Part shown: positions 33,974 to 47,352 of the stretch, one piece after another
Position numbering within the stretch: position 1 is the first letter of the stretch
Layout: the number at the start of each line of letters is the position of its first letter
DNA from: an uncultured Lachnospiraceae bacterium
GTDB taxonomy: Bacteria > Bacillota > Clostridia > Lachnospirales > Lachnospiraceae
Reading direction: 5' to 3'
DNA length: 57,919 nt
Assembly (NCBI GenBank): GCA_947625015.1
Contig: CANQMR010000021.1
Coordinates: forward strand, 1-57,919
Made by a program: the position numbers and the translations under genes
Notes under the pieces: generated by a model
Told to the model about the DNA's origin: nothing
Databases searched by the model: none
Seen by the model: the letters and a program-made list of their open reading frames with translations, nothing else

Positions 33974-34000
33974 ATATCGGATAAAATACAGAATATTTTA
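33974..34000 (-). promoter_or_regulatory. Sigma-D (sigma-28) type promoter
   Basis: On the minus strand TAAA (34000-33997) is followed after 15 bases by TCCGATAT (33981-33974). The consensus for motility sigma factors is TAAA-N15-GCCGATAT, so this differs at one base. It lies 51 bases before the 82-residue gene. Confidence 0.65.
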
Positions 34001-34027
34001 GAGTTTTGGGTGAAATTGTCAGAAAAT

Positions 34028-34084
34028 AACTGCCGCTGTCAACCGGTACCAACATAAATGTAAGTACCCGGTGCAACGGCAGTT
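34028..34084 (-). terminator. Terminator of the 205-residue gene
   Basis: A long imperfect stem pairs AACTGCCG with CGGCAGTT at its ends and GGTAC with GTACC inside, around a loop near 34055. On the minus strand it is followed by a T-rich run (TTATTTTCT). Confidence 0.7.
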
Positions 34085-34102
34085 CTGCTGTTCTAATCCT
34101 GC

Positions 34103-34720
34103 TTATGCCTCTGTCTTAATCTCTGCTTTCCAGTCGTCAATGCCCTTCATTACAGCGTCATATGTCTTCTGGGAAATCTCCGGGAGCTCGTCGCCCCAAA
34201 GCTTAGCTGCGGCTTCAAAGCCCTGCTTGATTGCGTCTCTCATCTGCTCCGCCTTCTCCGCATTGCCGCCGGTAATCGCCTTTGCAAAATCTAAGATACG
34301 CTCTGAGGTCTGCTTAACGCCCCAGTATCCGTCTTCGGAAATGTCTTCAGCAGCCTGCTTTGCGGTTGCCTCGTCTACCTCAATGGTGCCGTCTAAGATA
34401 CCCTGTCTGAACTGATCCCAGATGCTTGCATTCTTAGATGCCGTTCCCTGCTTGGAAATCAACTGCTCTACAATGCCCTTAAGCTGGGATAATCTTGCAT
34501 CAGCATCAGCCTTCAGCTTAGCAATGAGATCACTGTCAACCTTACTGCTCTGTTTTGTGGATTCTGCGGCTTCTGTATTCTGGGAAGGCTCATAAACAAC
34601 GCCAACATCTTCTGCGGTCTCTGCTGCATTTGCCTTCACATCCGTGTTCTGACTATTGCCTTGAATCTTGGAAATCAAATCACTGGTATAAGTGTTACTT
34701 CCTACGCTACCTACTGCCAT
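34103..34720 (-). CDS. Conserved hypothetical protein, probable motility regulon
   Basis: The 205-residue soluble protein has a low-complexity, Ala/Thr/Asn-rich first third, a coiled central part (LIAKLKADADARLSQLKGIV), and a conserved C-terminal domain with DGYWGVKQTSERILDFAKAI and LPEISQKTYDAVMKGIDDW. Proteins with this C-terminal pattern occur in flagellated Clostridia and spirochaetes without a known function (recollection). It lacks a signal peptide. AAGGAGG precedes the start, and a sigma-D-like promoter with GCCGATAG lies at 34780-34807, supporting expression with flagellar and chemotaxis genes. Confidence 0.8.
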   Translation of the reverse strand: MAVGSVGSNTYTSDLISKIQGNSQNTDVKANAAETAEDVGVVYEPSQNTEAAESTKQSSKVDSDLIAKLKADADARLSQLKGIVEQLISKQGTASKNASIWDQFRQGILDGTIEVDEATAKQAAEDISEDGYWGVKQTSERILDFAKAITGGNAEKAEQMRDAIKQGFEAAAKLWGDELPEISQKTYDAVMKGIDDWKAEIKTEA

Positions 34721-34779
34721 AATCGTACCCTCCTTGGTTCAAAATAAATAAAAAAGTCTAATAAGCTCTTTCTAATATG

Positions 34780-34807
34780 CTATCGGCATATATGATTATT
34801 AAGTTTA
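34780..34807 (-). promoter_or_regulatory. Sigma-D type promoter of the 205-residue gene
   Basis: On the minus strand TAAA (34807-34804) is followed by GCCGATAG (34787-34780) after 16 bases. The -10 matches seven of eight consensus bases; the spacer is one longer than usual. Confidence 0.6.
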
Positions 34808-34860
34808 TACCATAAGGAAAATTTATGCAATAAAATTTTAACAGTCAGGAATTATTTTTA

Positions 34861-35180
34861 ATGGACTATAAAAAACTTTGATGATATCATAATGATACAA
34901 GTATAAGAAAGGAAAAGTTTTACAATGGAATTACTGCATTTCCTTATCTTTGAATAAAGGAGGTTGGGAAAATAGATACTATTCCAGAGGTTGTAAATGG
35001 GGGATGATTATGAGGATACTATATAATTATATATTTGATGTGACAAAAATTGTAAAGCGCAACGAAATGCTATCGTATGTACAGGAATTTATACGGAAGA
35101 ATAGTCTGGAGTACAAAGATGTTGTTTGATATAATTAGATGAGATATGGTGTGTGCGTAGATGCAGAATGGAGTTTGGAG
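34861..35180 (+). other. AT-rich stretch with only tiny reading frames
   Basis: No convincing gene is seen. A frame of 41 codons (35004-35129, starting MIMRIL) follows a GGGG run but has no match I recognise. A 10-codon frame follows AAAGGAAAAG near 34935. AAAGGAGG (34957-34964) has no good frame behind it. The composition marks the edge of the AT-rich accessory region. Confidence 0.4.
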
Positions 35181-35834
35181 ATGGATGATAAGATTGTTGA
35201 AAGTGCAATTGAATATATTCGGATTTTTTTTGCTGATGATGCTAGTGGACATGATTTTTATCATAGTTTACGTGTTTACAAAACTGCAACATATATTGCA
35301 GAACGTGAAAATGCTAATTTGTTTATAGTAAAACTTGCAGCACTTTTACATGATGTAGATGATTATAAATTGAAAAGAGGAAATGACGAGTTGAAAAATG
35401 CGCGCGAATTTCTGATTATAAATAACCTTGATAAAAAAGATATTAAATGTATTTGTGATATTATTTCTGAAATTTCATTTAAGGGAATAAATACATGCAC
35501 ACCTTCAACTATTGAAGGTAAAATAGTTCAAGATGCTGATAGACTTGATTCTATAGGAGCTATTGGAATTGCAAGGACATTCACGTATGGTGGAAGCGTA
35601 GGGAGAGCAATCTATTCTCCAGAAATTATGGTTCGAGAAAATATGGAACAAAGTGAATATCAAAATTATATTGGTACGACAATAAATCATTTCTATGAAA
35701 AATTATTAATGGTAAAAAATCAGATGAATACACAAGAAGGAAATAGAATTGCTGAACAAAGACATTTGTATATGGAAGAATATTTGAAGACATTTTTTTG
35801 TGAGTGGGATTGTCAAGATTTTATAAGAAATTAA
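35181..35834 (+). CDS. HD-domain phosphohydrolase, YedJ-like
   Basis: The 217-residue protein has the HD metal site in order: GHDFYHSLRV (H24, H28), ALLHDVDDYK (H57, D58) and a distal VQDADRLDSIGAIGIAR with the last Asp. This layout matches the YedJ/YpgQ group of soluble HD hydrolases, several of which act on nucleotides. Start 35181 (MDDKIVESAI) is preferred to the in-frame ATG 35139, which has no site; GGAG lies at 35170-35173. It is AT-rich and stands alone upstream of two unknown genes. Confidence 0.8.
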   Translation: MDDKIVESAIEYIRIFFADDASGHDFYHSLRVYKTATYIAERENANLFIVKLAALLHDVDDYKLKRGNDELKNAREFLIINNLDKKDIKCICDIISEISFKGINTCTPSTIEGKIVQDADRLDSIGAIGIARTFTYGGSVGRAIYSPEIMVRENMEQSEYQNYIGTTINHFYEKLLMVKNQMNTQEGNRIAEQRHLYMEEYLKTFFCEWDCQDFIRN

Positions 35835-35849
35835 TCACTTTGTACAGAT

Positions 35850-35969
35850 ATGTTTACGTGGGTGGATTGTGAGACTTCAAGGAAGAGTCGTCCAAAAGAT
35901 TTAACATATCTTGGAAAATGTGATAAGTTCCATTTGTCTGGAGGTAAGGGATCAAAGGAAGAATTGTAG
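35850..35969 (+). pseudogene. Short orphan frame, possible gene remnant
   Basis: A 39-codon frame (starting MFTWVDCETSRKSRP, ending SGGKGSKEEL) lies between the HD gene and the TPR gene. It has no clear ribosome site. It could be the 3' tail of a lost gene or a small peptide gene; I recognise no family. Confidence 0.3.
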
Positions 35970-35996
35970 ATTTGAAAATGGAGAGGTACATTAGGG

Positions 35997-36638
35997 ATGG
36001 ACGAATTTCTTAAGCAGCGCCAATTTAGAGAAGTTGAAAAAATATTGGTGCAGCAATACAATGAAAAGAAAAATGATGTTGATATATTGTTCCAGTTAGC
36101 AATGGTTTACTTTCAATATCCATTTGCAAATGAAGAGAAATCAATAAAATATCTGGATAAGATACTGGAGATTGACAAATATAATTTTCAGGCATTAATT
36201 ATAAAAATGTATTTGCAAAATTATTATTATGCAGAGATGGATAAGGATTTTGAAGTGCTTACAAATTATAAATGGAATGATGACTATAAAATGTCGATTG
36301 TTTACTATATTTACGCATGGAAATTCGATTGGTGGAATACTAATATCCAAATAGAAGAAAAAATAAAATGGATAAGAAAATCTATAGAAACATATCCGGA
36401 TTTAGTATATACGCATTATAGATTAGGTGATTTGCTTGTTAAGCTCAATAAATATGAAGAAGCAGGTATGTGTTATAAACAAGCCTTGGGTAATGTTCAA
36501 TCTACAGATTTTCCCGATGAGGAGTGTTTAAATCCTCAAATGTTTATAGATGAGTATATTACAGGTGTTTCTATGTCAACCATTAATTATGAGTCATTAA
36601 GAAAAAAGGCATTAGCATCACATTCACCAAATGAATAA
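35997..36638 (+). CDS. TPR-like helical repeat protein of unknown function
   Basis: The 213-residue cytoplasmic protein consists of paired helices in TPR style: VDILFQLAMVYFQYPFANEEKSI, NFQALIIKMYLQNYY, YPDLVYTHYRLGDLLVKLNKYEEAGMCYKQAL. The last is a nearly canonical TPR. It is rich in Tyr and Lys and AT-rich in sequence. The weak GAGAGG at 35981-35986 serves the start. The next gene begins 13 bases after the stop, so the two form a pair. Small TPR proteins next to unknown small proteins often belong to toxin-immunity loci, but nothing here proves that. Confidence 0.7.
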   Translation: MDEFLKQRQFREVEKILVQQYNEKKNDVDILFQLAMVYFQYPFANEEKSIKYLDKILEIDKYNFQALIIKMYLQNYYYAEMDKDFEVLTNYKWNDDYKMSIVYYIYAWKFDWWNTNIQIEEKIKWIRKSIETYPDLVYTHYRLGDLLVKLNKYEEAGMCYKQALGNVQSTDFPDEECLNPQMFIDEYITGVSMSTINYESLRKKALASHSPNE

Positions 36639-36651
36639 GAAGGGAATAAAA

Positions 36652-37086
36652 ATGGATACAGTTTTGGGAAAAATAATTATTAAAGTTAATGGTAATATTG
36701 TTGATTATATTACTGAGGAATTGCCCAATAAAACAAAATGTTTTTGTGTTGATAAAAGATATAAGTTACATAATAAAATTATTTTAGATAAAGAAGATAC
36801 GATTGAGTGTTTAATTGAGCCTAAAGATAATATGATATTAGATAGTTACTTAGAAACAGGGGAAGATCTTTTTTTAGTTAGTTTTTATTGGGGAAATTTT
36901 AAAATGAGTATGGGAACATTGGGGGATCAAAGGGATAGAAATTATGAATATAAAAAAAATGGAATAAAAATTCAATTTAAAGAAAAATGCAAACAAGTTG
37001 ATTTTTGTGTTTCCTGGTTGCAAATGCACAATGAAGAAATAGAAGACGTTTATACATGGTTAGCATCTGACCCGTTATATAATTAG
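36652..37086 (+). CDS. Unknown 144-residue protein paired with the TPR gene
   Basis: This soluble, beta-rich protein has no recognised family. It contains short alternating strands (GKIIIKVNG, DTIECLIEP, DLFLVSFYWGNFKMSMG) and ends with SWLQMHNEEIEDVYTWLASDPLYN. No metal or catalytic motif is visible. Start 36652 has AGAAGGG seven bases upstream. The size and acidic, aromatic-rich end would fit an immunity protein, which is inference. It is very AT-rich. Confidence 0.65.
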   Translation: MDTVLGKIIIKVNGNIVDYITEELPNKTKCFCVDKRYKLHNKIILDKEDTIECLIEPKDNMILDSYLETGEDLFLVSFYWGNFKMSMGTLGDQRDRNYEYKKNGIKIQFKEKCKQVDFCVSWLQMHNEEIEDVYTWLASDPLYN

Positions 37087-37118
37087 CTTGTATATAAATA
37101 CTGTTTCAGATAAATTTA

Positions 37119-37147
37119 TTGACAAAATATGGTATTTGATTCATAAT
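37119..37147 (+). promoter_or_regulatory. Sigma-A promoter of the membrane protein gene
   Basis: A perfect TTGACA (37119-37124), a 17-base spacer and CATAAT (37142-37147) lie 95 bases before the start at 37243. Confidence 0.6.
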
Positions 37148-37242
37148 TAGAAATGTAGTCTTACGATTTATAGTTACACGATTCATATTCGTATAGTAAA
37201 TGTGATTCAAAATGATATTTAATTCTTTTGGGGTAGACGATT

Positions 37243-37968
37243 ATGATAAAAAAAGAATCCTATGAAAAATTACTTGCGGCGTATCTCGTTATTGAATTTA
37301 TTCTCTTTTGTATAATAAAAATTGCAGAGCAGACAGCAGGGCGGGGATTATTAAGTCTGTTTATGTATTTGCCCATTTTACTAAATTTCGTTGTAATTGT
37401 TTATTCGTACCATACCTTTAACAAGCAAACAGCGAATCTAAATAAAAAGAGTATAACTATTTGGGGGATTCCGCTTGCGTTGCTATTTACGCTCTGCGCG
37501 GATGTGTTTCTGGTTTTGATTCATCAGCAAAATATTCTGGTGTTTGGATATTTTTTCTTTGCGCTGGTACAAACTGTGTATGCATTTTACCTTGGGGTTA
37601 CTCCGTTAATTGGTGCTATCAGAATTTTTGCCTACATAGCCTTCTTAGTCGTACTGACTTTGTTTGATAAGCTATTATTGGCTAATGTTGTAGCGGGGTG
37701 GTCCTTGATACAGCTAGTTATCAATATGATTATCGCATGGATAGCCTATATCAAAAAACGGTCTCTGCCGGCTTTGCTTCTGGCAGCGGGGCTGACGTTA
37801 TTTTTTGGCTGTGACGGCTCAATTACACTTCGTATGACGCTGCCTGACCATCAAACTGTGTTCTATCATGTGATTTGCCTGCTTGTCTGGACTTGCTATG
37901 TTCCCTCCCAGGTGGCACTTGTTACAAGCTATATTACAGGTAGAAGGAAGGGGCTTTTGGAGGGTTAG
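37243..37968 (+). CDS. Eight-helix membrane protein, distantly YhhN/TMEM86-like
   Basis: The 241-residue protein has about seven or eight membrane helices. The segment LLFTLCADVFLVL followed by FGYFFFALVQTVYAFYLG, and a later GLTLFFGCDGSITLRM, resemble the paired acidic motifs of YhhN/TMEM86 lysoplasmalogenase-type proteins (GD and SD motifs). The match is distant and activity is uncertain. Its composition is less AT-rich than the genes just upstream. It converges with the recombinase gene across a hairpin terminator. Confidence 0.65.
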   Translation: MIKKESYEKLLAAYLVIEFILFCIIKIAEQTAGRGLLSLFMYLPILLNFVVIVYSYHTFNKQTANLNKKSITIWGIPLALLFTLCADVFLVLIHQQNILVFGYFFFALVQTVYAFYLGVTPLIGAIRIFAYIAFLVVLTLFDKLLLANVVAGWSLIQLVINMIIAWIAYIKKRSLPALLLAAGLTLFFGCDGSITLRMTLPDHQTVFYHVICLLVWTCYVPSQVALVTSYITGRRKGLLEG

Positions 37969-37975
37969 TTTATAA

Positions 37976-38021
37976 CAGGCGGCAATCTATCGGTTCTCCC
38001 ATTCATATAGACTGTCGCCTG
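37976..38021. terminator. Hairpin between convergent genes
   Basis: CAGGCGGCAATCTA (37976-37989) pairs with TAGACTGTCGCCTG (38008-38021), with one mismatch and one wobble. Weak T/A-rich flanks lie on both sides. It probably terminates both the membrane protein gene and the recombinase gene. Confidence 0.6.
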
Positions 38022-38026
38022 AGTAA

Positions 38027-38947
38027 TTAAATATGGAAATCCTTTCTGGGATGTTTTGTTGAGAGGATTTTCTTTTGCTTCGACATGGAAACATGGGTAT
38101 AGATGGCCGTAATATTAATGGAACTGTGTCCTAAAAGTTCCTGGATATAACGAACGTCCACATCTGCGTCCAAAAGGCTTGTGGCGAAGGTATGCCGGAA
38201 CATATGCGGCGTAATATGAAGGTCTACGGAGGCAAGGGCGGTGTATTTGTTTATCATTCTGCGGATAGCCTGGTCAGACAATGCCGTACCGTTCTGGTTT
38301 GCAAAAAAATGACCGCATTGTCGGATTTCGTTTTTAAAATCAGTGCGGTATTCTTTTAAAATTTTAAGGACGTCTGCATTGCCAATCTGTATCTTTCGCT
38401 CCTTTGAACCCTTCCCATATATCAAAACGCTTTGCTCCTGCAAATTTACATCACAGGCGTTTAAAGAGCATAATTCAGAAATCCGTATTCCGGTAATAAA
38501 AAGCATTTCCAGAACTGCGGCGTCTCTTAGCGCATTTCTGCGCTGATACGGTGTTCCGGCTGTTTTCCGGCAGTCGTAAACCGTAGACAAAAGCGCTTTT
38601 ATATCGTAAAGAGGAATGGTTCTGGGCAGAATTATAGGTTCCCGGAAGCGGATTTCCAGGTGTTGGAAGGGATTTCTGTCAATCAGCTCCTTATAATCTA
38701 AATAGTGAAAGAAGGCCTTTGCGGCGGCAATTTTTCGTTTTACTGTCCTGGGCTTATATTTTTGATGGAGACCGGCAATATAATCCTCTAACATAGCAGA
38801 GGTAATATCTGAAATATCTTCCGCCGGTACAGACGCCGCAAATTGGACAAGGTCAATCCGGTAAGCCTTCAGTGTTTTATTGTCAAGTTTTTTCTGATAC
38901 TGGCAATACTCTAAATAGTTGTTAAGGTGTGTCTGTAAATTGTGCAT
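38027..38947 (-). CDS. Tyrosine recombinase, XerC/XerD-like
   Basis: The 306-residue protein has an N-terminal core-binding domain (about 1-85) and a catalytic domain. Catalytic residues are complete: Arg in TGIRISEL, Lys in the YGKGSKERK hairpin, HMFRH (HxxR), LGHSS and the nucleophile Tyr in AIYTHV. It could resolve chromosome dimers or act as an integrase for the surrounding island; no attachment site was found. The start at 38947 is preferred over 38953 because AGGAG is eight bases upstream of the former and only two from the latter. Confidence 0.9.
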   Translation of the reverse strand: MHNLQTHLNNYLEYCQYQKKLDNKTLKAYRIDLVQFAASVPAEDISDITSAMLEDYIAGLHQKYKPRTVKRKIAAAKAFFHYLDYKELIDRNPFQHLEIRFREPIILPRTIPLYDIKALLSTVYDCRKTAGTPYQRRNALRDAAVLEMLFITGIRISELCSLNACDVNLQEQSVLIYGKGSKERKIQIGNADVLKILKEYRTDFKNEIRQCGHFFANQNGTALSDQAIRRMINKYTALASVDLHITPHMFRHTFATSLLDADVDVRYIQELLGHSSINITAIYTHVSMSKQKKILSTKHPRKDFHI

Positions 38948-39130
38948 AATCATATCTCCTTTGTATTTGTTAAAATGTATTTTACACTTATTTACAAGCT
39001 ACGATAATTTTAATAGTATGCCTGCAGATTTTGAAAAATCAGATAAAAGGATTGCATAACTTTTAGAAGACTAATATACTCTGTATTATAAAAATATCCA
39101 GAACGGCAAAAATATTAGATGGAGGTTGCC

Positions 39131-39247
39131 ATGGAAATAAAAAGAGACGTATATCTTGACCGGCTCATTGTTAGAAAGCACAATGGATTTCTCCGCAGGG
39201 ATAATGTCGATGTTTATGTGACAGGCAGTAATTCTAAATATTGGTGA
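39131..39247 (+). pseudogene. Remnant of a COG1373-type ATPase gene
   Basis: A GGAGG-preceded frame of 38 codons begins MEIKRDVYLDRLIVRKHNGF, the standard N-terminus of ATPases of the AAA/DUF4143 (COG1373) type. It then jumps directly to NVDVYVTGSNSK, which normally lies about 100 residues further on. The Walker A region is therefore deleted, and a stop follows after YW. It is a decayed gene joined across an internal deletion. The bases from 39248 to 39333 hold no gene I recognise. Confidence 0.75.
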
Positions 39248-39333
39248 TTATCTGGTGAATCATATTCTGAAGAGGATATAATGCTATGACAGAAATGTGG
39301 ATGTGTTTCCGAAGAGATCTGTGGGAGATTATG

Positions 39334-40257
39334 TCAATACACTTTAATTCGCAAAATTGACATCCAATTTATTGGAAATCCCATTGTATTGAGGGTGTCT
39401 GGCGATGGATTGTACTTTTTAATGACTTTCTTTAAATCATAATAAAACATACGGAAATCTGCTGTATCAAGTAAATATTTTAATGAAACTACGGTTGCAA
39501 ACAAGTCCGATTTGCCATAGTTATACAAAGTGCCGGTTTTAGGAATTCGTAGTTTTTTGTGGGCGCTACAGTCCATAATTGCGTTGCCATGTCGGACGTT
39601 AAAAAGACGGTTTCCATGGGCGCAGATATTGCGTGTTTTGGTTAGTATGACCAACATTTTAACCAATTCGGCACGCCCGATTTGATGAAAATCATTGCAT
39701 ACTAAAGTCTTGCAATGACCTTTCAGATAGCGAAACATGGAAGTGATTTCACCGAGGGTTAGATCGGTAGTCAGTACCCAAAGAGGAACATCATGATATA
39801 ATGATAAATGATGTTTTACAGATGGAGACGCATTTTTGTCATATATCTTTTGGTTCATTTTCTTAAATAAAATGCGTATTTGATTTTGGCGTTTGCCATA
39901 ATCAAAATTGGCAGGGTTTTGGTAATTATTCATGCTATTTCCATATAAGTCTGAAAAGTGGTATGAGATAGAGGCTTTAATGTTTTTTTCTACAATCAGA
40001 ATATATTTCAAAAAAACTTCTCGTAAATCAGCGTCAAAAAGATACATTTGATAAATATCGTCAAATGTCGTATTGGATATATAACGATTAGTTGCGGTAT
40101 TTTTGAAGAATTCCTTGTATCCATTGATAAGTCCATAATAACCAATTTTACTTAGAATATGAATAGCAAGGTTGTCATCCTCAATAATTAAGTTCTTGTT
40201 CTTTAAATGTTGGATTTGAGCTTTATAATCCATAAATGTATTTTCGTTTGATGCCAT
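39334..40257 (-). CDS. Abi-family abortive-infection protein with HEPN motif (AbiD/AbiF-like)
   Basis: The 307-residue protein matches the Abi_2 family. Its N-terminus (MDYKAQIQHLKNKNL, LSKIGYYGLINGYKEFF) and the block LFDADLREVFLKYILIVEKNIKASISYHF are characteristic. So are VPLWVLTTDLTLGEITSMFRYL and TRNICAHGNRLFN. The last holds the Rx4H motif (R209, H214) of HEPN ribonucleases. Such proteins stop growth or cut RNA on phage infection. AAGGAG precedes the start by six bases, and directly upstream lies a structured RNA with its own promoter and terminator. The neighbours are a recombinase and a decayed ATPase gene, as in defence islands. Confidence 0.9.
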   Translation of the reverse strand: MASNENTFMDYKAQIQHLKNKNLIIEDDNLAIHILSKIGYYGLINGYKEFFKNTATNRYISNTTFDDIYQMYLFDADLREVFLKYILIVEKNIKASISYHFSDLYGNSMNNYQNPANFDYGKRQNQIRILFKKMNQKIYDKNASPSVKHHLSLYHDVPLWVLTTDLTLGEITSMFRYLKGHCKTLVCNDFHQIGRAELVKMLVILTKTRNICAHGNRLFNVRHGNAIMDCSAHKKLRIPKTGTLYNYGKSDLFATVVSLKYLLDTADFRMFYYDLKKVIKKYNPSPDTLNTMGFPINWMSILRIKVY

Positions 40258-40269
40258 AAAATTCTCCTT

Positions 40270-40338
40270 AAAAACGAAACGGCCCCCGCAGGAGCCGCTC
40301 GGGTTACGGGCTTCTCAAGTTTCCGTAACTCATTCACT
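40270..40338 (-). ncRNA. Structured small RNA upstream of the Abi gene
   Basis: An RNA of about 69 bases is predicted from the minus strand. It has a first hairpin GTTACGG/CCGTAAC (40329-40303) with a 13-base loop that may form a three-pair inner stem. A second hairpin CGGCTCC/GGGGCCG (40297-40280) is followed by TTTCGTTTTT, a clear intrinsic terminator. It ends just before the ribosome site of the Abi gene, so the gene is reached only by read-through. Conserved structured RNAs upstream of Abi_2/AbiF genes have been described, and this fits that arrangement. Its precise 5' end is inferred from the promoter. Confidence 0.75.
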
Positions 40339-40344
40339 GGTATC

Positions 40345-40373
40345 ACTATACAACAAAAGTGGTATTTTGTCAA
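40345..40373 (-). promoter_or_regulatory. Strong promoter of the Abi-associated RNA
   Basis: On the minus strand a perfect TTGACA (40373-40368), a 17-base spacer and TATAGT (40350-40345) lie just before the RNA. This is one of the best sigma-A promoters in the window, suited to a small RNA made in excess over the protein. Confidence 0.8.
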
Positions 40374-40464
40374 ATAGAATCCAGTTATTTAGTAGTATAC
40401 GTTACAGATAAAAAAACATACACAAAAAATAAATAAACCATATCTTAACCACATATTGGAAAGA

Positions 40465-40470
40465 TATAAT
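40465..40470 (+). promoter_or_regulatory. -10 box before the lipoprotein/ABC operon
   Basis: A perfect TATAAT lies 33 bases before the lipoprotein start. No convincing -35 is seen at the right distance, so activation by a regulator (possibly the operon's own response regulator) is plausible. Confidence 0.4.
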
Positions 40471-40502
40471 TAGTGCATTAGAAATATACCGGAGGTAAAA
40501 AT

Positions 40503-40985
40503 ATGGTCAAAAGGGGATTAATTATTATATCAATTCTATGCTTGATAAGTCTTTCAGGCTGTTCGAACAAGACTTACGGAACCGCTGAAACGAAAAGCAC
40601 CTTGAATTATGATAGTGAGGAAATGGGGACTTCTTTAGAAAAAGAGAATGAAGATTTTTATGTGGACACGCAGGAGGCTATTTTGAGCGGAAGCGTTTCT
40701 AATATGGTTGACGGGGGCTGTATGCTACAGGTTGGACAGGATAATGGAGATGTATACGCCATGCCTGTTGACGGGGAAAATCAGAATGATTTAGTTACGA
40801 TTAATTTTAATTCCGATATGCCGGTTGTAATTGAGTATTTTGACGGGGTGAAAAAGGAATTTGAGGAAGGAAAAGTGGAGGATATTAAAATAAATACATT
40901 TATATATGTTTTTGGGGAATTTCTGGGTGAGAATACTGTAAACGCAGATAAAATAGTAATATTCAGGGTTTCAGATGCAAAATGA
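40503..40985 (+). CDS. Lipoprotein of the ABC/two-component operon
   Basis: The 160-residue protein has a lipoprotein signal peptide ending in ISLSGC (C20), a Ser/Thr/Glu-rich linker and a small beta-rich domain (EAILSGSVSNMVDGGCMLQVG, INTFIYVFGEFLGENTVNADKIVIF) of OB-fold-like pattern. It is the first gene of a six-gene run followed by two permeases, an ATPase, a response regulator and a kinase. It may bind the substrate or peptide that the system exports or senses. GGAGG precedes the start at 40491-40495. Confidence 0.8.
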   Translation: MVKRGLIIISILCLISLSGCSNKTYGTAETKSTLNYDSEEMGTSLEKENEDFYVDTQEAILSGSVSNMVDGGCMLQVGQDNGDVYAMPVDGENQNDLVTINFNSDMPVVIEYFDGVKKEFEEGKVEDIKINTFIYVFGEFLGENTVNADKIVIFRVSDAK

Positions 40986-41000
40986 CTGGAGGGAAAAAGG

Positions 41001-42215
41001 GTGTTTTTTGGCAAACGCGCAGTAAAATATATTATAAGAAAAAGAAGAAGAACCGTTGTCATGTTGTTCGTTTTTCTGGTGATTTGTACATTGAATCTGA
41101 CGATGGTAACGATAAAAGAGAATATTGAAAAGGTGCAAGAAGATATTAATGAATCTGTTCAGGCAAAGGTGATAGCAGATGTTAAAACATCTGACAATCT
41201 TATTAAATTAGAGGAGATAGATTTAATAAACACGAATCAAATTAAGCAGATTAACAAAATAAGCATTACATATGCCTTCCCGAATAATTTTTATCATTTT
41301 AAGGGGAAGGTTGAAAATGATATAAGGGAAGAAATGATAACATTATACGGGTATGATGAGTTGTCTTTGGACAGCAGATTTGCTGAATTGGAAATGAAAC
41401 TGTTAGAAGGAGAGATGATAACCTCCAATAGTAAAAATGCAATCATTATCAATCATAAACTTGCGGATGAAAATAAATTGAATCTAGGAGACGAAATTGG
41501 TTTTTCATATAACAATCAGACGGTTTGCGGTAAGATTGTCGGAATTTATAAATCAAGTGTCGAAGACAGACAGCCGGAAACAATGGTTTCATTTTACAGA
41601 ATAGAAAATATATTATATGTTAGTAATGATTTAGTCACATTATTAACAGGCAAACAGGAATATAATAAGGCAGTATTTTACCTGAAAAATCCAAATGAAC
41701 TGGCTGTTGTCCAAAAAAACATTGAAAAGAATCTGGCGGATAAGGCTTCGATAAGTATATCTGATACAATGTTCCATAAAATTAAATTGCAATTAAGTCA
41801 GATTAATAAGATAACAAATGTTTTTCTGATTGGCTCTGTGATACTTTCTATTAGTATTGTGGCATTATTAAATTGTATTTGGCTGCGAGACAGAAGGCGG
41901 GAAATGGGAATTTTTTTAAGCATGGGATATCGCAAATGGTCCATTTTGCTACAGGTATTATTTGAGTCGGATTTATTATTTGTTTTTGCATTTCTGGGAA
42001 GTATTTTAATAAGTTATCAAATAATTGATAAAATTATGTTTTTCTTTAATAAAATCCAAGATTCAAGAATTAGTTTTGATGTAAATTGGAATAGCAGAGT
42101 AATTTTAACTGTTTTAGGTGTTGGTACAGGGCTGGTAATGATTTCTGTCTTTTTGACAACAATGTATTTGCTAGTGAAACGACCAAGAGAAATATTGGCG
42201 GATTTGGAGGATTAA
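41001..42215 (+). CDS. FtsX/MacB-type ABC permease 1
   Basis: The 404-residue protein has an N-terminal helix after KYIIRKRRRTVV, a large extracytoplasmic domain (about 45-280) and three C-terminal helices with the LRDRRREMGIFLSMGYRKWSI coupling motif. This is the MacB/FtsX permease plan used for exporting or sensing peptides and lipoproteins. The start is GTG 41001 with GGAGGG at 40988-40993. It ends two bases before permease 2. Confidence 0.9.
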   Translation: MFFGKRAVKYIIRKRRRTVVMLFVFLVICTLNLTMVTIKENIEKVQEDINESVQAKVIADVKTSDNLIKLEEIDLINTNQIKQINKISITYAFPNNFYHFKGKVENDIREEMITLYGYDELSLDSRFAELEMKLLEGEMITSNSKNAIIINHKLADENKLNLGDEIGFSYNNQTVCGKIVGIYKSSVEDRQPETMVSFYRIENILYVSNDLVTLLTGKQEYNKAVFYLKNPNELAVVQKNIEKNLADKASISISDTMFHKIKLQLSQINKITNVFLIGSVILSISIVALLNCIWLRDRRREMGIFLSMGYRKWSILLQVLFESDLLFVFAFLGSILISYQIIDKIMFFFNKIQDSRISFDVNWNSRVILTVLGVGTGLVMISVFLTTMYLLVKRPREILADLED

Positions 42216-42217
42216 GT

Positions 42218-43612
42218 ATGAATTTTTTTAACAGAGCTGTATTATCCGTATTAAGAAGAAAAATAAAAACAATTCTTTTGATGCTGATCGTTATGACAAT
42301 TTTTTGCTTTGAAGTTGCTATTGTTACATGTAAAAATGCAAATATTAAGGTTCAAAAGGGGGCGGTTGATATTATCGAAAGGAGTTTGCGATTGGAATTA
42401 AATGATACGGATTATCACCAAAGATTAGAAAAGGTACCCGTTACGCGATTACCCAATGGAGCAACCTTGTCGCAGACGCCGAGTAACCAATTTGAATCAA
42501 TATTAATGGAGGACATAGAGGTGATTGCGGGGTTGCCGGGAATTGATTCTTACAATATTACGACAGCAACTTTTGCTGCTAATCCTGTAAATTTTAGAAG
42601 AATAGAAGATGAAAATGCGGACCAGTATAGCGACCAGCGCGGAATAACGCTTAGAGGAAATCTGGATATGCAAAAGGACAAGGATATAATATCAGGAACG
42701 CTGCAATTAAAGGACGGAAGATGGGCAAATATTGACGATAAGAATGTGTGTGTAATTTCAGAGGAGCTGGCTCAAAAAAATAACCTCAAAATAGATGATA
42801 AAATTTCGTTTAATGATTATAGAGATAAAGCTGGTTCAAAAATATATGAGGCTCGGATTATTGGAATATATATGAATTCAAAATTAATAAACCAGACTAT
42901 GGCAGGAGATACATATCGGGGTGAGAATTTGATTTTGGTTGATTTGCGTTTTCCTGAAAAGGTAACTGGGTGTGAAGGAGATCCGCTTTATCAGAATGCA
43001 ACATTTTTTGTGGAAGCTAATGCCGATTATGGCAGGGTGAAAAATTTAATTAAGGAAGCAAATATAAATTGGAAAAGGTATGATTTGTTAGATGACAGCG
43101 GAAATGCAGAAGTACTATGTGAAAATTTAGGAAGTATTTCTAAAATATGCCAGGTCATGTTTTGGTTCTGCATAGTTTCAGGAACAGTAATTTTATTTTT
43201 GAATTTTGTTTTTTGGATAAAACAGAGAATACGGGAAATTGGAATATTTATTTCTCTGGGAAAAAGTAAATTAGAGATTATAGGGCAATTTTTAACGGAA
43301 GCATTGATAATATTTTTAATGGCAATCACTGTGTCAATTTTTTTAGTACCCTTTATTGGAAAGAAAATGACCAATTATATAGTTTTGGAACAGGAAAAAT
43401 TAGAAAAAGAAAATAATCAGATTGTGGAACAACAAATAGAAGGTCCTGATATACATAACGAAGAAATAATAAGTGAAGTGGAGGTAACTATTGAAAAGAG
43501 CAGTATTGTAAAGATGGGCTTGGTTACAATGTCGATGATGGTCGTAGCCGTTTTTTCAGCAGGTTCCCCCGTAATAAAGAAAAGTCCTATGATTATTTTA
43601 AGCGAAAGGTAG
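42218..43612 (+). CDS. FtsX/MacB-type ABC permease 2
   Basis: The 464-residue protein repeats the plan of permease 1: KTILLMLIVMTIFCFEVAIV helix, extracytoplasmic domain (about 40-300), then helices with KQRIREIGIFISLGKSKLEI. It has an additional charged insertion before the last helix (EQEKLEKENNQIVEQQ). The two permeases probably form a heterodimer served by one ATPase. The ATPase gene follows seven bases later. Confidence 0.9.
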   Translation: MNFFNRAVLSVLRRKIKTILLMLIVMTIFCFEVAIVTCKNANIKVQKGAVDIIERSLRLELNDTDYHQRLEKVPVTRLPNGATLSQTPSNQFESILMEDIEVIAGLPGIDSYNITTATFAANPVNFRRIEDENADQYSDQRGITLRGNLDMQKDKDIISGTLQLKDGRWANIDDKNVCVISEELAQKNNLKIDDKISFNDYRDKAGSKIYEARIIGIYMNSKLINQTMAGDTYRGENLILVDLRFPEKVTGCEGDPLYQNATFFVEANADYGRVKNLIKEANINWKRYDLLDDSGNAEVLCENLGSISKICQVMFWFCIVSGTVILFLNFVFWIKQRIREIGIFISLGKSKLEIIGQFLTEALIIFLMAITVSIFLVPFIGKKMTNYIVLEQEKLEKENNQIVEQQIEGPDIHNEEIISEVEVTIEKSSIVKMGLVTMSMMVVAVFSAGSPVIKKSPMIILSER

Positions 43613-43619
43613 GGAGATT

Positions 43620-44252
43620 ATGATTTTAGAAGTAAAAGATGTTGATTATTACTATAAAAATAATGAAAATAAATTAATATTGCAAAATATTAATTTACAA
43701 TTTGATAAAGAAATGGTATATGCAATTTTAGGACCAAGCGGCTCCGGAAAATCAACCTTATTATCTCTGATGGCAGGATTAGATGTACCAACAGGCGGAA
43801 AAATTTTATTTTGTGGGAAGGAAATAAAAAAGAAGTATTTAAATATGTACAGAAGAAATAATATTTCTTTGGTATTTCAAAACTATAATTTGATTGATTA
43901 TTTAACTGCGGAAGAAAATGTCCGGTTAGGAGGGAAAAAGGATTCCTTGCAAATACTTAATTCGGTTGGGATTTCTAAAGAAGAAAGTAAAAGATTGGTC
44001 TTACATCTTTCTGGAGGACAGCAGCAACGAGTGGCAATAGCGAGGGCATTGGCAAGTGATGCGGAAATTTTATTAGCTGATGAGCCAACCGGAAATCTGG
44101 ATGAAGATACGGAAGGGGAAATTATTGCATTGCTGGTGAAAACAGCGCATGAACTTAAAAAGTGTGTAATCGTCGTCACACATAGTAATATATTGGCGCA
44201 GCAGGCTGACAAAATAATATTATTGGAAAAAGGAAAAATAAAAAGCAGTTAG
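43620..44252 (+). CDS. ABC transporter ATP-binding protein, MacB/LolD type
   Basis: The 210-residue protein has Walker A GPSGSGKST, Q-loop VFQNYNLIDYLT, signature LSGGQQQRVAIARAL, Walker B ILLADEPTGNLD and the switch His in VVTHSN. The LADEPTGNLD sequence marks the MacB/LolD subgroup that partners FtsX-like permeases. It is directly downstream of the two permease genes and upstream of a two-component system. Confidence 0.95.
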   Translation: MILEVKDVDYYYKNNENKLILQNINLQFDKEMVYAILGPSGSGKSTLLSLMAGLDVPTGGKILFCGKEIKKKYLNMYRRNNISLVFQNYNLIDYLTAEENVRLGGKKDSLQILNSVGISKEESKRLVLHLSGGQQQRVAIARALASDAEILLADEPTGNLDEDTEGEIIALLVKTAHELKKCVIVVTHSNILAQQADKIILLEKGKIKSS

Positions 44253-44276
44253 TTTTTTATTTAGAAAGGATTAGCT

Positions 44277-44933
44277 ATGTATAAAATATTAATTGTAGAA
44301 GATGATAAAGATATTCAGGAAACATTAAAATTTTTTTTGGAGGATAATGGGTATGAAACAGAGGTTGCAGGTGATGGAATGGAAGCGATAGAAAAGATGG
44401 AAGAAAAACAGTGGAATCTTATTCTTTTAGATATATTATTGCCTAAAATTGACGGATATGCGGTTTGTGAATTTATCAGAAGGAAATCAAATGTGCCTGT
44501 AATTATGATTACAGCGCTGACTAGTGAAGAAGATCAAATAAAGGCGTTAGATTTACTGGCAGATGATTATATTACAAAACCATTTTCCATTCCTGTTTTG
44601 CTCAGAAAGGTAGGGGCTGTACTAAGAAGAAGCAGCGGTGATGATAATAAAGGAATTATAAATTACCGGAATATGAAAATGGACATAGACAATTATAAAG
44701 TATTTATGGATGGAAAAGAAATAATTTTAACGAAAAGGGAATTTGAAATATTAAGAGAATTGTTAGTTAATCGTGGGAGAATTTTAACAAGAGAAATTCT
44801 CATGGAACGGGTGTGGCAGTATGAATATATGGGTAATGTCAGAGTGGTGGACAATCATATTAAGAATATCAGGAAAAAGTTACCTGAAGATTACATAATT
44901 ACCATTAAGGGGGTTGGCTATAGAATTGATTAG
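44277..44933 (+). CDS. OmpR-family response regulator
   Basis: The 218-residue protein has a receiver domain with the acid cluster VEDD, phosphoacceptor D52 (LILLDILLPK), the switch Thr in MITAL and the Lys in YITKPFS. A winged-helix DNA-binding domain follows (LTKREFEILRELLVNRG, VDNHIKNIRKKL, GVGYRID). It probably controls its own operon, as is common for BceRS-like systems. The kinase frame overlaps its end. Confidence 0.95.
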   Translation: MYKILIVEDDKDIQETLKFFLEDNGYETEVAGDGMEAIEKMEEKQWNLILLDILLPKIDGYAVCEFIRRKSNVPVIMITALTSEEDQIKALDLLADDYITKPFSIPVLLRKVGAVLRRSSGDDNKGIINYRNMKMDIDNYKVFMDGKEIILTKREFEILRELLVNRGRILTREILMERVWQYEYMGNVRVVDNHIKNIRKKLPEDYIITIKGVGYRID

Positions 44934-46353
44934 GTTTGTTAAAAGACATTTAAATGTAAAAGTTTTCATAATAACATTATTCATTCAGATCTTAATTGGC
45001 GTCGTTACATATACTTTTATTTCTATAGTTACACCGAAGACATATCTGGATAAAATAAATCAGACAACAGATGCATTGGTACAAAGCGCGATAAACCGGT
45101 TTTCAGAATTAAACCTGGCAGAATGTAAGCAAAGATTATTAGAATTGGTTATGGGAAATAACTTAATGATAAAATTAACAGATGATAAAGGAAATGAAAT
45201 TGATTTTGGAAGTGATATACAATTTGATAGTGATTATGCAGATCAAAATCGCCTTATGAAGGAATATACGGAAAAAGGTTATACATTTAAACCCAAAGAT
45301 AGCAATAAAAATTATTTTGTGTATATCGTTGGAAATGGACAAAGGGTTAATTTGTTTAGAGACACACTGCAAGATGTGATCCCATACCTTGCAATAATTG
45401 TAGTGGTTATATCCTTTGTTGTTTCGCTATTGTGCAGTCGTTTTATTTCAAATCCAGTCATAAAAATATCGCAGACAGCAAAAAATCTTGCTGATTTAAA
45501 ATTTGTTTCATTAAATAGGACCGGGAGGCAGGACGAAATAGGAATTATAGAAGAAAGCCTGTGTGAGCTGTCGGAGCATCTTTCTCATGCTTTAAATGAA
45601 TTGCAGAATAAAAATAATGAATTGAAACAAGAGGTAGAAAATGTGAAGAGAATGGAAAGACAACAATTCTCTTTTTTTTCGGCGGTATCGCATGAATTGA
45701 AGACGCCAATTACCGCATTAAAAGGGCAACTGCAAGGAATGATACATAATGTTGGTGGATATAAGGATCATAATAAATATCTGAATAGGGCGTTTGCGAT
45801 AGTTCAGGATATGGAATCGCTGGTTGTTGAGATTATGTCATCAGCTAAAATTCATTCAGATAGTTTTGTGGCACAAAAACAGGAAATCGAATTAAGAAGA
45901 ATGGTGTCAGACGTTATTAATGAATATGAAGATATTGCTATGAGCAAAGAGGTTTTTTTACAAATCAACTTAGGAGAAGAAGATATATATGTATTGGGTG
46001 ATGATAGCCTGCTGCGGATTGCAATTAGTAATATATTAAGTAATGCCATTCGTTATTCCATTCCGGAGACGGATATATTTGTCTGCTTACAGATGAAAAA
46101 ACAATATATACTCTTTTATATTATCAATCAATGCGAGCACATTCCGGAATCAGAAATAGACAGGATGTTTTTGCCATTTACAAGATTAGAAGAATCCAGA
46201 AACAGGGCTACCGGAGGCAGCGGCCTTGGTTTGTATTTGGTAAAGATGATTTTGGATATGCATGAAGTGCAATATAAATTATATAATATACCCAAGGGTG
46301 TAAAATTTGAAATACATTTCGACTTGAATCATAAGTCAGATAGTTCACATTGA
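44926..46353 (+). CDS. Sensor histidine kinase of the ABC operon
   Basis: This protein of about 475 residues has a first membrane helix (KVFIITLFIQILIGVVTY), a 120-residue outside domain and a second helix (YLAIIVVVISFVVSLL). HAMP, HisKA with FFSAVSHELKTPITAL, and HATPase (NILSNAIRYS, GGSGLGLYLVKMI) follow. The substantial sensor domain suggests direct ligand sensing rather than sensing through the transporter alone. The start is uncertain: TTG 44926 or TTG 44914, both overlapping the regulator gene; AAGGGGG is at 44907-44913. Confidence 0.9.
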   Translation: MIRFVKRHLNVKVFIITLFIQILIGVVTYTFISIVTPKTYLDKINQTTDALVQSAINRFSELNLAECKQRLLELVMGNNLMIKLTDDKGNEIDFGSDIQFDSDYADQNRLMKEYTEKGYTFKPKDSNKNYFVYIVGNGQRVNLFRDTLQDVIPYLAIIVVVISFVVSLLCSRFISNPVIKISQTAKNLADLKFVSLNRTGRQDEIGIIEESLCELSEHLSHALNELQNKNNELKQEVENVKRMERQQFSFFSAVSHELKTPITALKGQLQGMIHNVGGYKDHNKYLNRAFAIVQDMESLVVEIMSSAKIHSDSFVAQKQEIELRRMVSDVINEYEDIAMSKEVFLQINLGEEDIYVLGDDSLLRIAISNILSNAIRYSIPETDIFVCLQMKKQYILFYIINQCEHIPESEIDRMFLPFTRLEESRNRATGGSGLGLYLVKMILDMHEVQYKLYNIPKGVKFEIHFDLNHKSDSSH

Positions 46354-46433
46354 GAATTTTATTATGTGTTTCTTTACAAAATGCCAGTATAAAGTTTTGG
46401 ACGAACAATTTTATAGATAAAACCTATAAAATA

Positions 46434-46450
46434 TGGTATACTGTATACAA
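46434..46450 (+). promoter_or_regulatory. ispE promoter with a palindromic operator candidate
   Basis: TGGTATACT (46434-46442) is an extended -10 box. It overlaps GTATACTGTATAC (46436-46448), a perfect 13-base palindrome. No -35 is evident. The motif resembles TTGTATACAA-like sites bound by FCD-type GntR regulators, and such a regulator is encoded in this same operon. Confidence 0.5.
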
Positions 46451-46488
46451 CACAAATTTGTCAGGATGACGCCGGAGGAGGATTAGGT

Positions 46489-47352
46489 ATGGATACATTG
46501 CAGTTAAAGGCCTACGCCAAGATTAACTTGGGGTTAGATGTGGTTCGGAAAAGGGAAGACGGATATCATGAGGTCCGCATGATTATGCAGACGGTTAAGC
46601 TGTTCGACAAGCTGACATTTACCCTTTTGCCGGAGAATACGATTCGGCTCAAAACCAATCTCGGCTTCCTTCCGGTAAATGAGAACAATCTGGTCTATAA
46701 GGCCGTAAAGCTTTTGAAGGATATGTACCATGTGGAGCAGGGATTGGAGATTGACCTGTTTAAATGTATTCCTGTCGCAGCGGGAATGGCGGGAGGCAGT
46801 ACCGACTGCGCGGCGGCGTTAGTGGGTGCGGCAAGGCTTTTCCATCTGCATTTGAGCAAGGAAAAGCTGATGGAATTAGGCGTTACCTTAGGAGCAGACG
46901 TTCCCTACTGTGTGCTTCGGGGAACGGCGCTTTCCGAGGGAATTGGTGAGATTCTTACGCCACTGCCTGCGATTCCGGATTGTCATATCTTAATCGCGAA
47001 GCCCCCCATATCCGTATCCACTAAATTTGTCTATGAACATTTAGACGCAAAGGAGCTTGCAGCCCACCCTGACATTGACGGCATGGTGGAGGCCATTAAG
47101 GCGGGGAGCTTGCAGGGGATTGCTGACAGAATGGAGAATGTGTTAGAGACCGTAACCATTCCCGAATACCCGGTAATCGCGAAGATTAAAGATGTGATGA
47201 AAGAGCAGGGGGCTGTAAATGCGCTGATGAGCGGTTCCGGTCCTACGGTGTTTGGTATTTTTGAAAAGAAGGAGGTTGCCTTAGCGGCGGAGAAGGCCAT
47301 CCGGGAAAAGCAGCTTTCCAGCCAGGTCTATGTGGTAGAGCCGTTTAAATAG
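46489..47352 (+). CDS. ispE: 4-diphosphocytidyl-2-C-methyl-D-erythritol kinase
   Basis: The 287-residue GHMP kinase phosphorylates CDP-methylerythritol in the non-mevalonate isoprenoid pathway. The N-terminus KAYAKINLGLDVVRKREDGYHE is diagnostic. The ATP loop PVAAGMAGGSTDCAAA spans residues 95-110, and the C-terminal MSGSGPTVFGIF motif is intact. Length is typical. GGAGGAGG lies upstream of the start. A GntR gene follows after 16 bases, an order seen in other Lachnospiraceae. Confidence 0.96.
   Translation: MDTLQLKAYAKINLGLDVVRKREDGYHEVRMIMQTVKLFDKLTFTLLPENTIRLKTNLGFLPVNENNLVYKAVKLLKDMYHVEQGLEIDLFKCIPVAAGMAGGSTDCAAALVGAARLFHLHLSKEKLMELGVTLGADVPYCVLRGTALSEGIGEILTPLPAIPDCHILIAKPPISVSTKFVYEHLDAKELAAHPDIDGMVEAIKAGSLQGIADRMENVLETVTIPEYPVIAKIKDVMKEQGAVNALMSGSGPTVFGIFEKKEVALAAEKAIREKQLSSQVYVVEPFK

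Follow-up and report, generated by a model that had tools for sequence, protein, structure and literature searches.

RNA-antitoxin systems of the AbiF kind are proposed ancestors of Cas13. Among described systems, the RCd22-AbiF pair of C. difficile is reported as one in which the RNA neutralizes the toxin in cis and in trans and binds to it; a terminator before the gene halts most transcription, and the RNA lowers expression through that terminator as well (PMC12373285). For a second pair, PbAbiF-AbiFr, a review presents the structure PDB 8vz6 as an RNA-antitoxin complex (PMC12737573). Here we analyze a 57,919-nucleotide stretch of DNA from an uncultured Lachnospiraceae bacterium (contig CANQMR010000021.1, assembly GCA_947625015.1; hereafter the window) in which an AbiF-type toxin gene appears to be transcribed via a small two-hairpin RNA, with all parts on the minus strand.

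The locus opens with a sigma-70-type promoter, TTGACA-N17-TATAGT (40345..40373; -35 box at 40373-40368, -10 box at 40350-40345), which leads into a two-hairpin leader RNA, the proposed antitoxin (40268..40338), supported by our covariance model R1 (83.6 bits) and by covariation. Hairpin 1 (40303..40329) consists of a 7-bp stem (arms 40329-40323 and 40309-40303) with a conserved internal loop. Hairpin 2 (40277..40300), assigned from both terminator and covariation evidence, is an intrinsic-terminator stem-loop with a UGCG loop and is followed by the U-rich tail CGTTTTT (40270..40276). A ribosome-binding site, AAGGAG (40264..40269), precedes the gene (39334..40257, with its ATG at 40257 and its stop codon ending at 39334) for an Abi_2/AbiD-AbiF HEPN protein of 307 aa that contains the motif R209-N-I-C-A-H214. 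An earlier note made on this DNA had named the promoter, the two hairpins, the terminator, the AAGGAG, and the Abi_2 gene with its R209-x4-H214, and all are found on the minus strand where it had placed them. Its two-hairpin RNA likewise holds, whereas the length it gave, ~69 bases, is corrected to about 71 nt by the covariance model and the AGTGA start.

The window promoter matches the consensus at 11 of 12 positions and ranks first among the 20 promoter-like sites in 2.4 kb, a region that contains a mean of 11.1 such sites when shuffled. A promoter with at least 9 of 12 matches stands at the corresponding place in 41 of 45 abi-linked relatives, compared with 5.6% of shuffled leaders, and in 34 of the 45 abi-linked loci the 5′ end of the RNA, a conserved AGTGA, lies 6 nt past the -10 box. 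At the other end of the RNA, hairpin 2 is followed by at least five T in seven nucleotides in 43 of 54 abi-linked copies. A short inverted repeat evident in the sequence, ACTGG ... CCAGT (5 bp; 40334..40389), flanks the promoter; it is longer in several relatives, where 13 of the 47 abi-linked leaders (L107-L151) have arms of 6-11 bp, and its arms vary together between relatives. The mean exact match of the arms in the 47 abi-linked leaders is 3.47, compared with 2.51 ± 0.26 for swapped partners (lower in 500 of 500 swaps), a comparison that does not give a clean probability because the leaders are related. The same measure is 1.41 compared with 2.12 for swapped partners in the 34 loci without a toxin gene that are described below. 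The inverted repeat is possibly an operator.

Sequence comparisons place the encoded protein in the Abi_2/AbiD-AbiF family. It matches Pfam Abi_2 with an E value of 7.6e-43 (147.4 bits against a curated cut-off of 25.6) and the AbiD model of PADLOC with an E value of 2.3e-63 (212.5 bits), and a search of solved structures up to E 1 returns PbAbiF, 8vz6, alone (E 3.2e-13). The HEPN motif R-x4-H is confirmed as R209 and H214, which are invariant across 11 aligned relatives. The source genome contains one Abi_2 match to the window protein and one strong R1 RNA, and a scan of viral contigs with the window protein alone returned no relative. Promoter, RNA, and gene move as a single ~1.09-kb block whose flanks are unrelated: homology to the loci L001-L003 (88-89%) sets in 77-84 nt ahead of the RNA, which is ~40-50 nt ahead of the -35 box, and stops at the stop codon. 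In the window, a tyrosine recombinase (38027-38953; Phage_integrase, 3.9e-39) adjoins the abi gene on the same strand, and the other flank carries an FtsX-type permease, an ABC ATPase, and a response regulator on the opposite strand.

Single-sequence folding of the window RNA is mildly better than chance (z -1.95, with 9 of 200 shuffles folding equally well), and because this folding energy alone is weak, we place the weight on a comparison of leaders. Leaders were read at 35 loci including the window's own (L008), and 32 of them make up the alignment A1 (30 distinct rows), which omits two loci without the RNA in the leader (L031 and L036) and one duplicate (L009, of L005). Across the 17 pairs of A1, 95.1% of cells are paired, with 100% in helix 1 and 91.7% in helix 2, and hairpin 1 shows both-sided changes at 5 of its 7 pairs in the 32 leaders. 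The covariation score of 0.685 compares with 0.319 ± 0.019 for shuffled alignments, none of 500 scoring as high, and with a maximum of 0.257 for slid registers. The weakest measure, the number of pairs altered on both sides, is 12 compared with 9.5 and is matched by 18 of 500 shuffles. Both hairpins are conserved through compensatory changes in these 32 leaders, which is the covariation in homologous Abi_2 leaders that the earlier note had proposed to look for, and A1 reveals no variable, spacer-like segment in the RNA. The same note had hairpin 2 double as terminator and RNA structure. This dual role is likely because the hairpin covaries and is kept between two phage tRNA genes, with the caveat that one of the two phage types concerned retains five T in seven after it.

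The RNA does not resemble the abiF RNA of Rfam, RF03085 (cut-off 37 bits). At E 10, a covariance search against Rfam, also suggested at the outset, found RF03085 neither in the window stretch nor in the source genome, nor at the loci of 16 relatives. The same model detects phiC2 at 37.6 bits and gives matches in 20 of 299 genomes of the family at E 0.001, 6 of which exceed the cut-off; at least 10 of the matches in the family adjoin Abi_2 genes whose products are 25-31% identical to that of the window, including one match in a genome of the window's own genus. Because RF03085 misses the window and the 16 relatives' loci but matches beside more divergent Abi_2 genes, the window RNA is, on this comparison, assigned to a second class of leader RNA, distinct from RF03085 and serving closer relatives of the window protein. 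A likeness to Rfam Atu_C8 was dropped, the scores being 29.4 bits (L024), 26.5 (L029), 21.6 (L033), and 15.1 (window) against a cut-off of 50.

The R1 model was built from A1, and the rows of A1 therefore match it by construction. It identifies 72 copies of at least 39 bits in 53 of the 299 family genomes, below which the scores drop to 29.5. The class sample (391 genomes) adds nine genomes outside the family (G454, G555, G598, G383, G438, G312, G344, G369, and G547), and the phylum sample (299 genomes) contains no strong copy outside the family. The arrangement of RNA and gene varies among loci. The RNA occurs in two tandem copies in L025, Abi_2 is present with no RNA in its leader in L031 and L036, and the RNA lies 3′ of the gene rather than in the leader in L031/L170. 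The copy at 2001-2071 of L170, positioned after the abi gene, is the only one found there; L118 (3067-3138) and L039 (1322-1393) carry second copies after the gene. One relative, L012, has a THF riboswitch 3′ of its abi gene (2689-2827; 67.7 bits), which is ordinary.

The family and class samples together hold 84 strong copies, and 80 loci were examined (69 from the family, 11 from the class); the remaining four are the copy of the source genome, one from G369, and two second copies contained in examined loci. Judged by the family profile, an Abi_2 frame follows the RNA at 45 loci, precedes it at one (L170), and is lacking at 34, which we call orphans. Some abi-linked copies have only gene fragments (e.g. 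L129, L147, L148, L162, and L164). A full-sensitivity Abi_2 search of the 34 orphans gave one insignificant match (L183, E 0.53, upstream). By eye, three orphans have a broken abi start (L131, L138, and L139), and a contig end lies within 260 nt of two (L138 and L145). Using tblastn with the window protein, which may miss divergent Abi_2, we found no Abi_2 in 12 of the 24 family genomes with an orphan; among these 12, G291, G114, and G093 are decayed or contig-end cases, and G114 has RF03085 RNAs. A tblastn search with whole abi frames gave matches in 16 of the 34 orphans that were discarded as toxin remains: nearly all lay over the RNA itself because the frames ran from stop to stop through the leader.

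A promoter with at least 9 of 12 matches is kept in 23 of the 34 chromosomal orphans, compared with 5% of shuffles. The RNA fold is kept as well, with 94.5% of cells paired in an alignment of the 34 orphans and L170 (A3) and 97.6% in helix 1. For hairpin 1, we compared 40 orphans (the 34 chromosomal ones and six viral contigs) with the nearest abi-linked copy and counted 61 changed pairs, 6 of them broken, with 63 (52-76) broken expected if stem changes were random; the true ancestor in this comparison may be an unsampled linked copy, and the orphans include close kin (L134, L157, L179, and L186; also L144 and L190).

The neighboring genes are described here from 30 proteins picked by eye for Pfam, as a description and not an enrichment test. 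Above the Pfam cut-off are a zeta toxin in L134 (judged by eye to be present in L157, L179, and L186 as well), a nucleotidyltransferase with its binding partner in L159, AbiEi, AbiEii, and SocA in L152, HicB in L180, PBECR4 in L133, HsdM in L131, a YhcG nuclease in L173, DUF3990 in L167, a phage terminase in L183, and AAA_21 in L181. Under the cut-off are Phd (L144), AbiEi (L180), MazE (L168), and AAA_21 (L110). Ordinary neighbors occur too, such as GreA (L115) and an acetyltransferase (L161), and two proteins have no match. At L134, L157, L179, and L186, the RNA stands without an abi gene or a clear promoter ~0.2 kb before the zeta-like kinase gene, with a small frame between them.

Copies of the window RNA class are also found in phages. 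Two pattern scans of IMG/VR yielded 18 contigs, six with Abi_2 after the RNA and twelve without, the examined stretch ending within 0.9 kb in L190, L194, and L199. In two related phage types, which share an HU-like protein at 76% identity, an R1-type RNA occupies the slot between a tRNA-Met and a tRNA-Arg gene in a record without Abi_2 (type 1: L192 2470-2540, L195 5224-5294, and L196 4092-4162; type 2: L187 202-272 and L198 5598-5668). L192 encodes PhoH, a head maturation protease, and a tRNA-His guanylyltransferase, and L198 encodes a terminase. The fit is close: in L192, tRNA-Met ends at 2541, the RNA runs from 2540 to 2470, and tRNA-Arg starts at 2471, so that the last two bases of the model overlap tRNA-Arg; in L187 and L198, CCA immediately precedes AGTGA. 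The slot RNA retains the 5′ AGUGA, the loop, and both hairpins, with a compensatory change between the two types at pair 4 (A-U to G-C) and hairpin 2 kept in both. After hairpin 2, L192 has a weak T tract (4 of 7) and L187 a moderate one (5 of 7). Three phage relatives (L212, L215, and L216) have the tRNA-Arg and lack the R1 RNA.

Other viral candidates are less clear. Hairpin 1 lies a few bases before tRNA-Asn in L193, with a weak score of 37.1 bits; L188 also scores weakly (39.6 bits), and ARAGORN detected no tRNA in the examined stretches of L188, L194, L197, and L199. The pattern matches L206 and L208 (14.7 bits) do not score as the RNA, and L205 and L207 (31.3 bits) score only as hairpin 1; these were set aside. 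So were the 51 records from a blastn search of phages with the window RNA, none of which covers 80% of the RNA and most of which are short and chance-like.

RF03085 RNAs likewise occur beside phage tRNA genes. In cyanophage S-CREM1, the annotated abiF RNA (10531-10567; Rfam 52.2 bits) lies between tRNA-Asn and tRNA-Gly, 4 nt before the latter. It is reported as an sRNA in PMC9964418, the relevant parts of which draw no tie to an antitoxin function or to the array. A literature search for phage abiF RNAs as decoys, which covered few subscription papers, turned up only PMC12373285 and PMC9964418 as bearing on abiF RNAs in phages, and the link may be in print elsewhere. A tRNA gene also follows the RNA closely in three further records: tRNA-Ala after 3-4 nt in S-SZBM1 (55.7 bits), tRNA-Arg after 5 nt in S-SRM01 (49.3 bits), and tRNA-Arg after 28 nt in the IMG/VR contig L294 (59.4 bits). 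The three cyanophage RNAs that lie 3-5 nt before different tRNA genes are at L222 2032-2068, L317 706-742, and L318 701-737; the complete genomes of these three cyanophages gave no Abi_2 match. The structured RNAs manA and wcaG are present in the same cyanophage tRNA array. Away from close tRNAs, the RNA is found between head-to-tail connector and capsid assembly genes in Aeromonas phage PZL-Ah8 (L319 1004-1040; 50.1 bits) and near a terminase gene in Salicola phage CGphi29 (L321 1002-1038; 50.1 bits), and also in Mycobacterium phage Redno2 (47.5 bits), where a tRNA-Gly follows after 269 nt.

One RF03085-like pattern matched 0 contigs of IMG/VR and a looser one matched 94, about a third of them by estimated chance. 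Counting only places with at least three further outer pairs gave 37 among the 80 of 94 contigs listed. An Abi_2 gene is linked at 15 of these places, which share a single C. difficile-type sequence, and at the other 22 there is none. Two of the 37 (L242 and L274) share an aberrant loop. A tRNA lies within 400 nt at 4 of the 22 unlinked places (L231, L238, L250, and L294, of which L231 and L294 pass the Rfam cut-off and L238 and L250 fall short); the toxin-less RF03085 copies in IMG/VR therefore stand mostly away from tRNA genes. When whole records were searched for Abi_2, none of the 15 phage records with an orphan RNA (6 named genomes and 9 IMG/VR contigs, the latter possibly fragments) contained it, and both of the two positive controls did.

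We conclude that the window locus is probably an RNA-antitoxin module of the AbiF/AbiD kind, in which the RNA would restrain a HEPN ribonuclease. A single promoter would give rise to a short two-hairpin RNA; most transcripts should stop at hairpin 2, leaving the RNA in excess, and rare read-through would yield the mRNA of the ribonuclease. The RNA, mainly through hairpin 1 and its conserved loop, would bind the protein and hold the RNase inactive; the protein would be released when a phage infects or the RNA is lost, and growth would then stop. This reading draws on the covarying RNA, the promoter and terminator in register with it, the invariant R209 and H214, the kinship with PbAbiF, the single mobile block, and the layout of RCd22-AbiF; the RF03085 mismatch, the Abi_2 genes without a leader RNA, the gene fragments, and the weak single-sequence folding speak against it. 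An improbable alternative is that the hairpins act only in cis, as a terminator/antiterminator leader that sets abi expression without protein binding. The terminator immediately before the gene would suit such an attenuator, and the C. difficile RNA is reported to lower expression through its terminator as well (PMC12373285), yet hairpin 1 lies outside the terminator, is the better-conserved helix, and is kept in toxin-less copies, and copies of the RNA stand after the gene (L170, and the second copies of L118 and L039) and between phage tRNA genes. The earlier note had the RNA bind and restrain, or guide, the protein. Restraint gains support by analogy with RCd22-AbiF (PMC12373285). Guiding, in which the RNA would steer the HEPN protein to target RNAs as a crRNA does with Cas13, could appeal to the published AbiF-Cas13 kinship (PMC12165695, PMC12737573) but is very improbable, since the RNA has no variable, spacer-like part, window positions 34000-47000 contain no direct repeats of at least 20 nt within 200 nt of one another and so no repeat-spacer array, and the review names AbiF's RNA an antitoxin (PMC12737573).

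For the copies without a toxin gene, we lean, with modest confidence, towards counter-defense: phages would keep toxin-less AbiF antitoxin RNAs, from two RNA families and in unrelated phages, some inside tRNA arrays from which tRNA processing would release them, and the chromosomal orphans would likewise work on their own as immunity RNAs when AbiF modules arrive on incoming elements. The phage RNAs may act as decoys that bind host AbiF, because a toxin-less antitoxin RNA keeps its fold in phages and because pseudo-ToxI (PMC5086642) and RNA anti-CRISPRs (PMC10651486) are described precedents. The tRNA-processing enzymes would presumably excise the RNA from the array, and an RNA directly after a tRNA CCA would gain the 5′ end AGUGA, the same as that predicted from the bacterial promoter. 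It is also conceivable, and in our view rather unlikely, that the chromosomal orphans are remains of decayed modules and that the phage copies are structural or processing elements of tRNA arrays unlinked to AbiF. The broken abi starts of three orphans and the many fragmentary linked genes would fit decay, and the manA and wcaG RNAs of the cyanophage array and the phage relatives that do without the RNA would fit array elements. Decay is difficult to reconcile with 6 broken pairs in hairpin 1 where 63 are expected at random and with the promoters kept in 23 of 34 chromosomal orphans. Against a role confined to the array, the slot RNA preserves its AGUGA start, its loop, and the two hairpins, one pair having changed by compensation; RF03085 is also toxin-less in phages away from tRNAs; and two RNA families that have a link to Abi_2 genes in common both stand toxin-less beside phage tRNA genes.

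In itself, the window locus adds a new RNA class to a kind of system already known; the surprise lies in the life of the RNA outside the toxin gene. A second covarying class broadens the known partners of AbiF-type proteins, and the R1 model detects its members. Should the phage copies without a toxin gene prove active, they would be RNA inhibitors of a widespread defense and would supply one concrete reason why some phages keep non-tRNA RNAs in their tRNA arrays.

Compared with known systems, the locus shares with AbiF_Cd-RCd22 (C. difficile prophage phi027/phiC2; PMC12373285) a SigA promoter, a structured RNA, a terminator, and an Abi_2 HEPN gene with R-x4-H. The structured RNA ahead of AbiF-type genes, which the earlier note had given as known, is a layout reported from experiment for RCd22-AbiF (PMC12373285). 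RCd22 is described there with two RF03085 motifs, whereas the window RNA has one hairpin of another sequence class, and AbiF of phiC2 is ~26% identical to the window protein; the tandem copies of L025 do resemble the two motifs of RCd22. PbAbiF (8vz6) is related in protein sequence (3.2e-13), with the R and H aligned, and has an RNA partner. The HEPN domains of Cas13an and Cas13e are reported as related to AbiD/F (PMC12165695); unlike those systems, window positions 34000-47000 contain no CRISPR array or guide. RF03085 and the window class are both small hairpin RNAs by Abi_2 genes, with tandem copies and toxin-less phage copies, and differ in having bulges on opposite sides of the hairpin. 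The type III logic of ToxIN, and a phage RNA that mimics a host antitoxin as in the pseudo-ToxI of phage TE (PMC5086642), would apply here as well; ToxI, however, is a repeat array and pseudo-ToxI arose in escape mutants, whereas the mimics proposed here would be standing phage genes, some of them in tRNA arrays. The RNA anti-CRISPRs, or Racrs, are likewise lone phage RNA units that resemble the RNA partner of a defense nuclease; their described targets are Cas proteins (PMC10651486), whereas the target here would be AbiF, with placement in a tRNA array.
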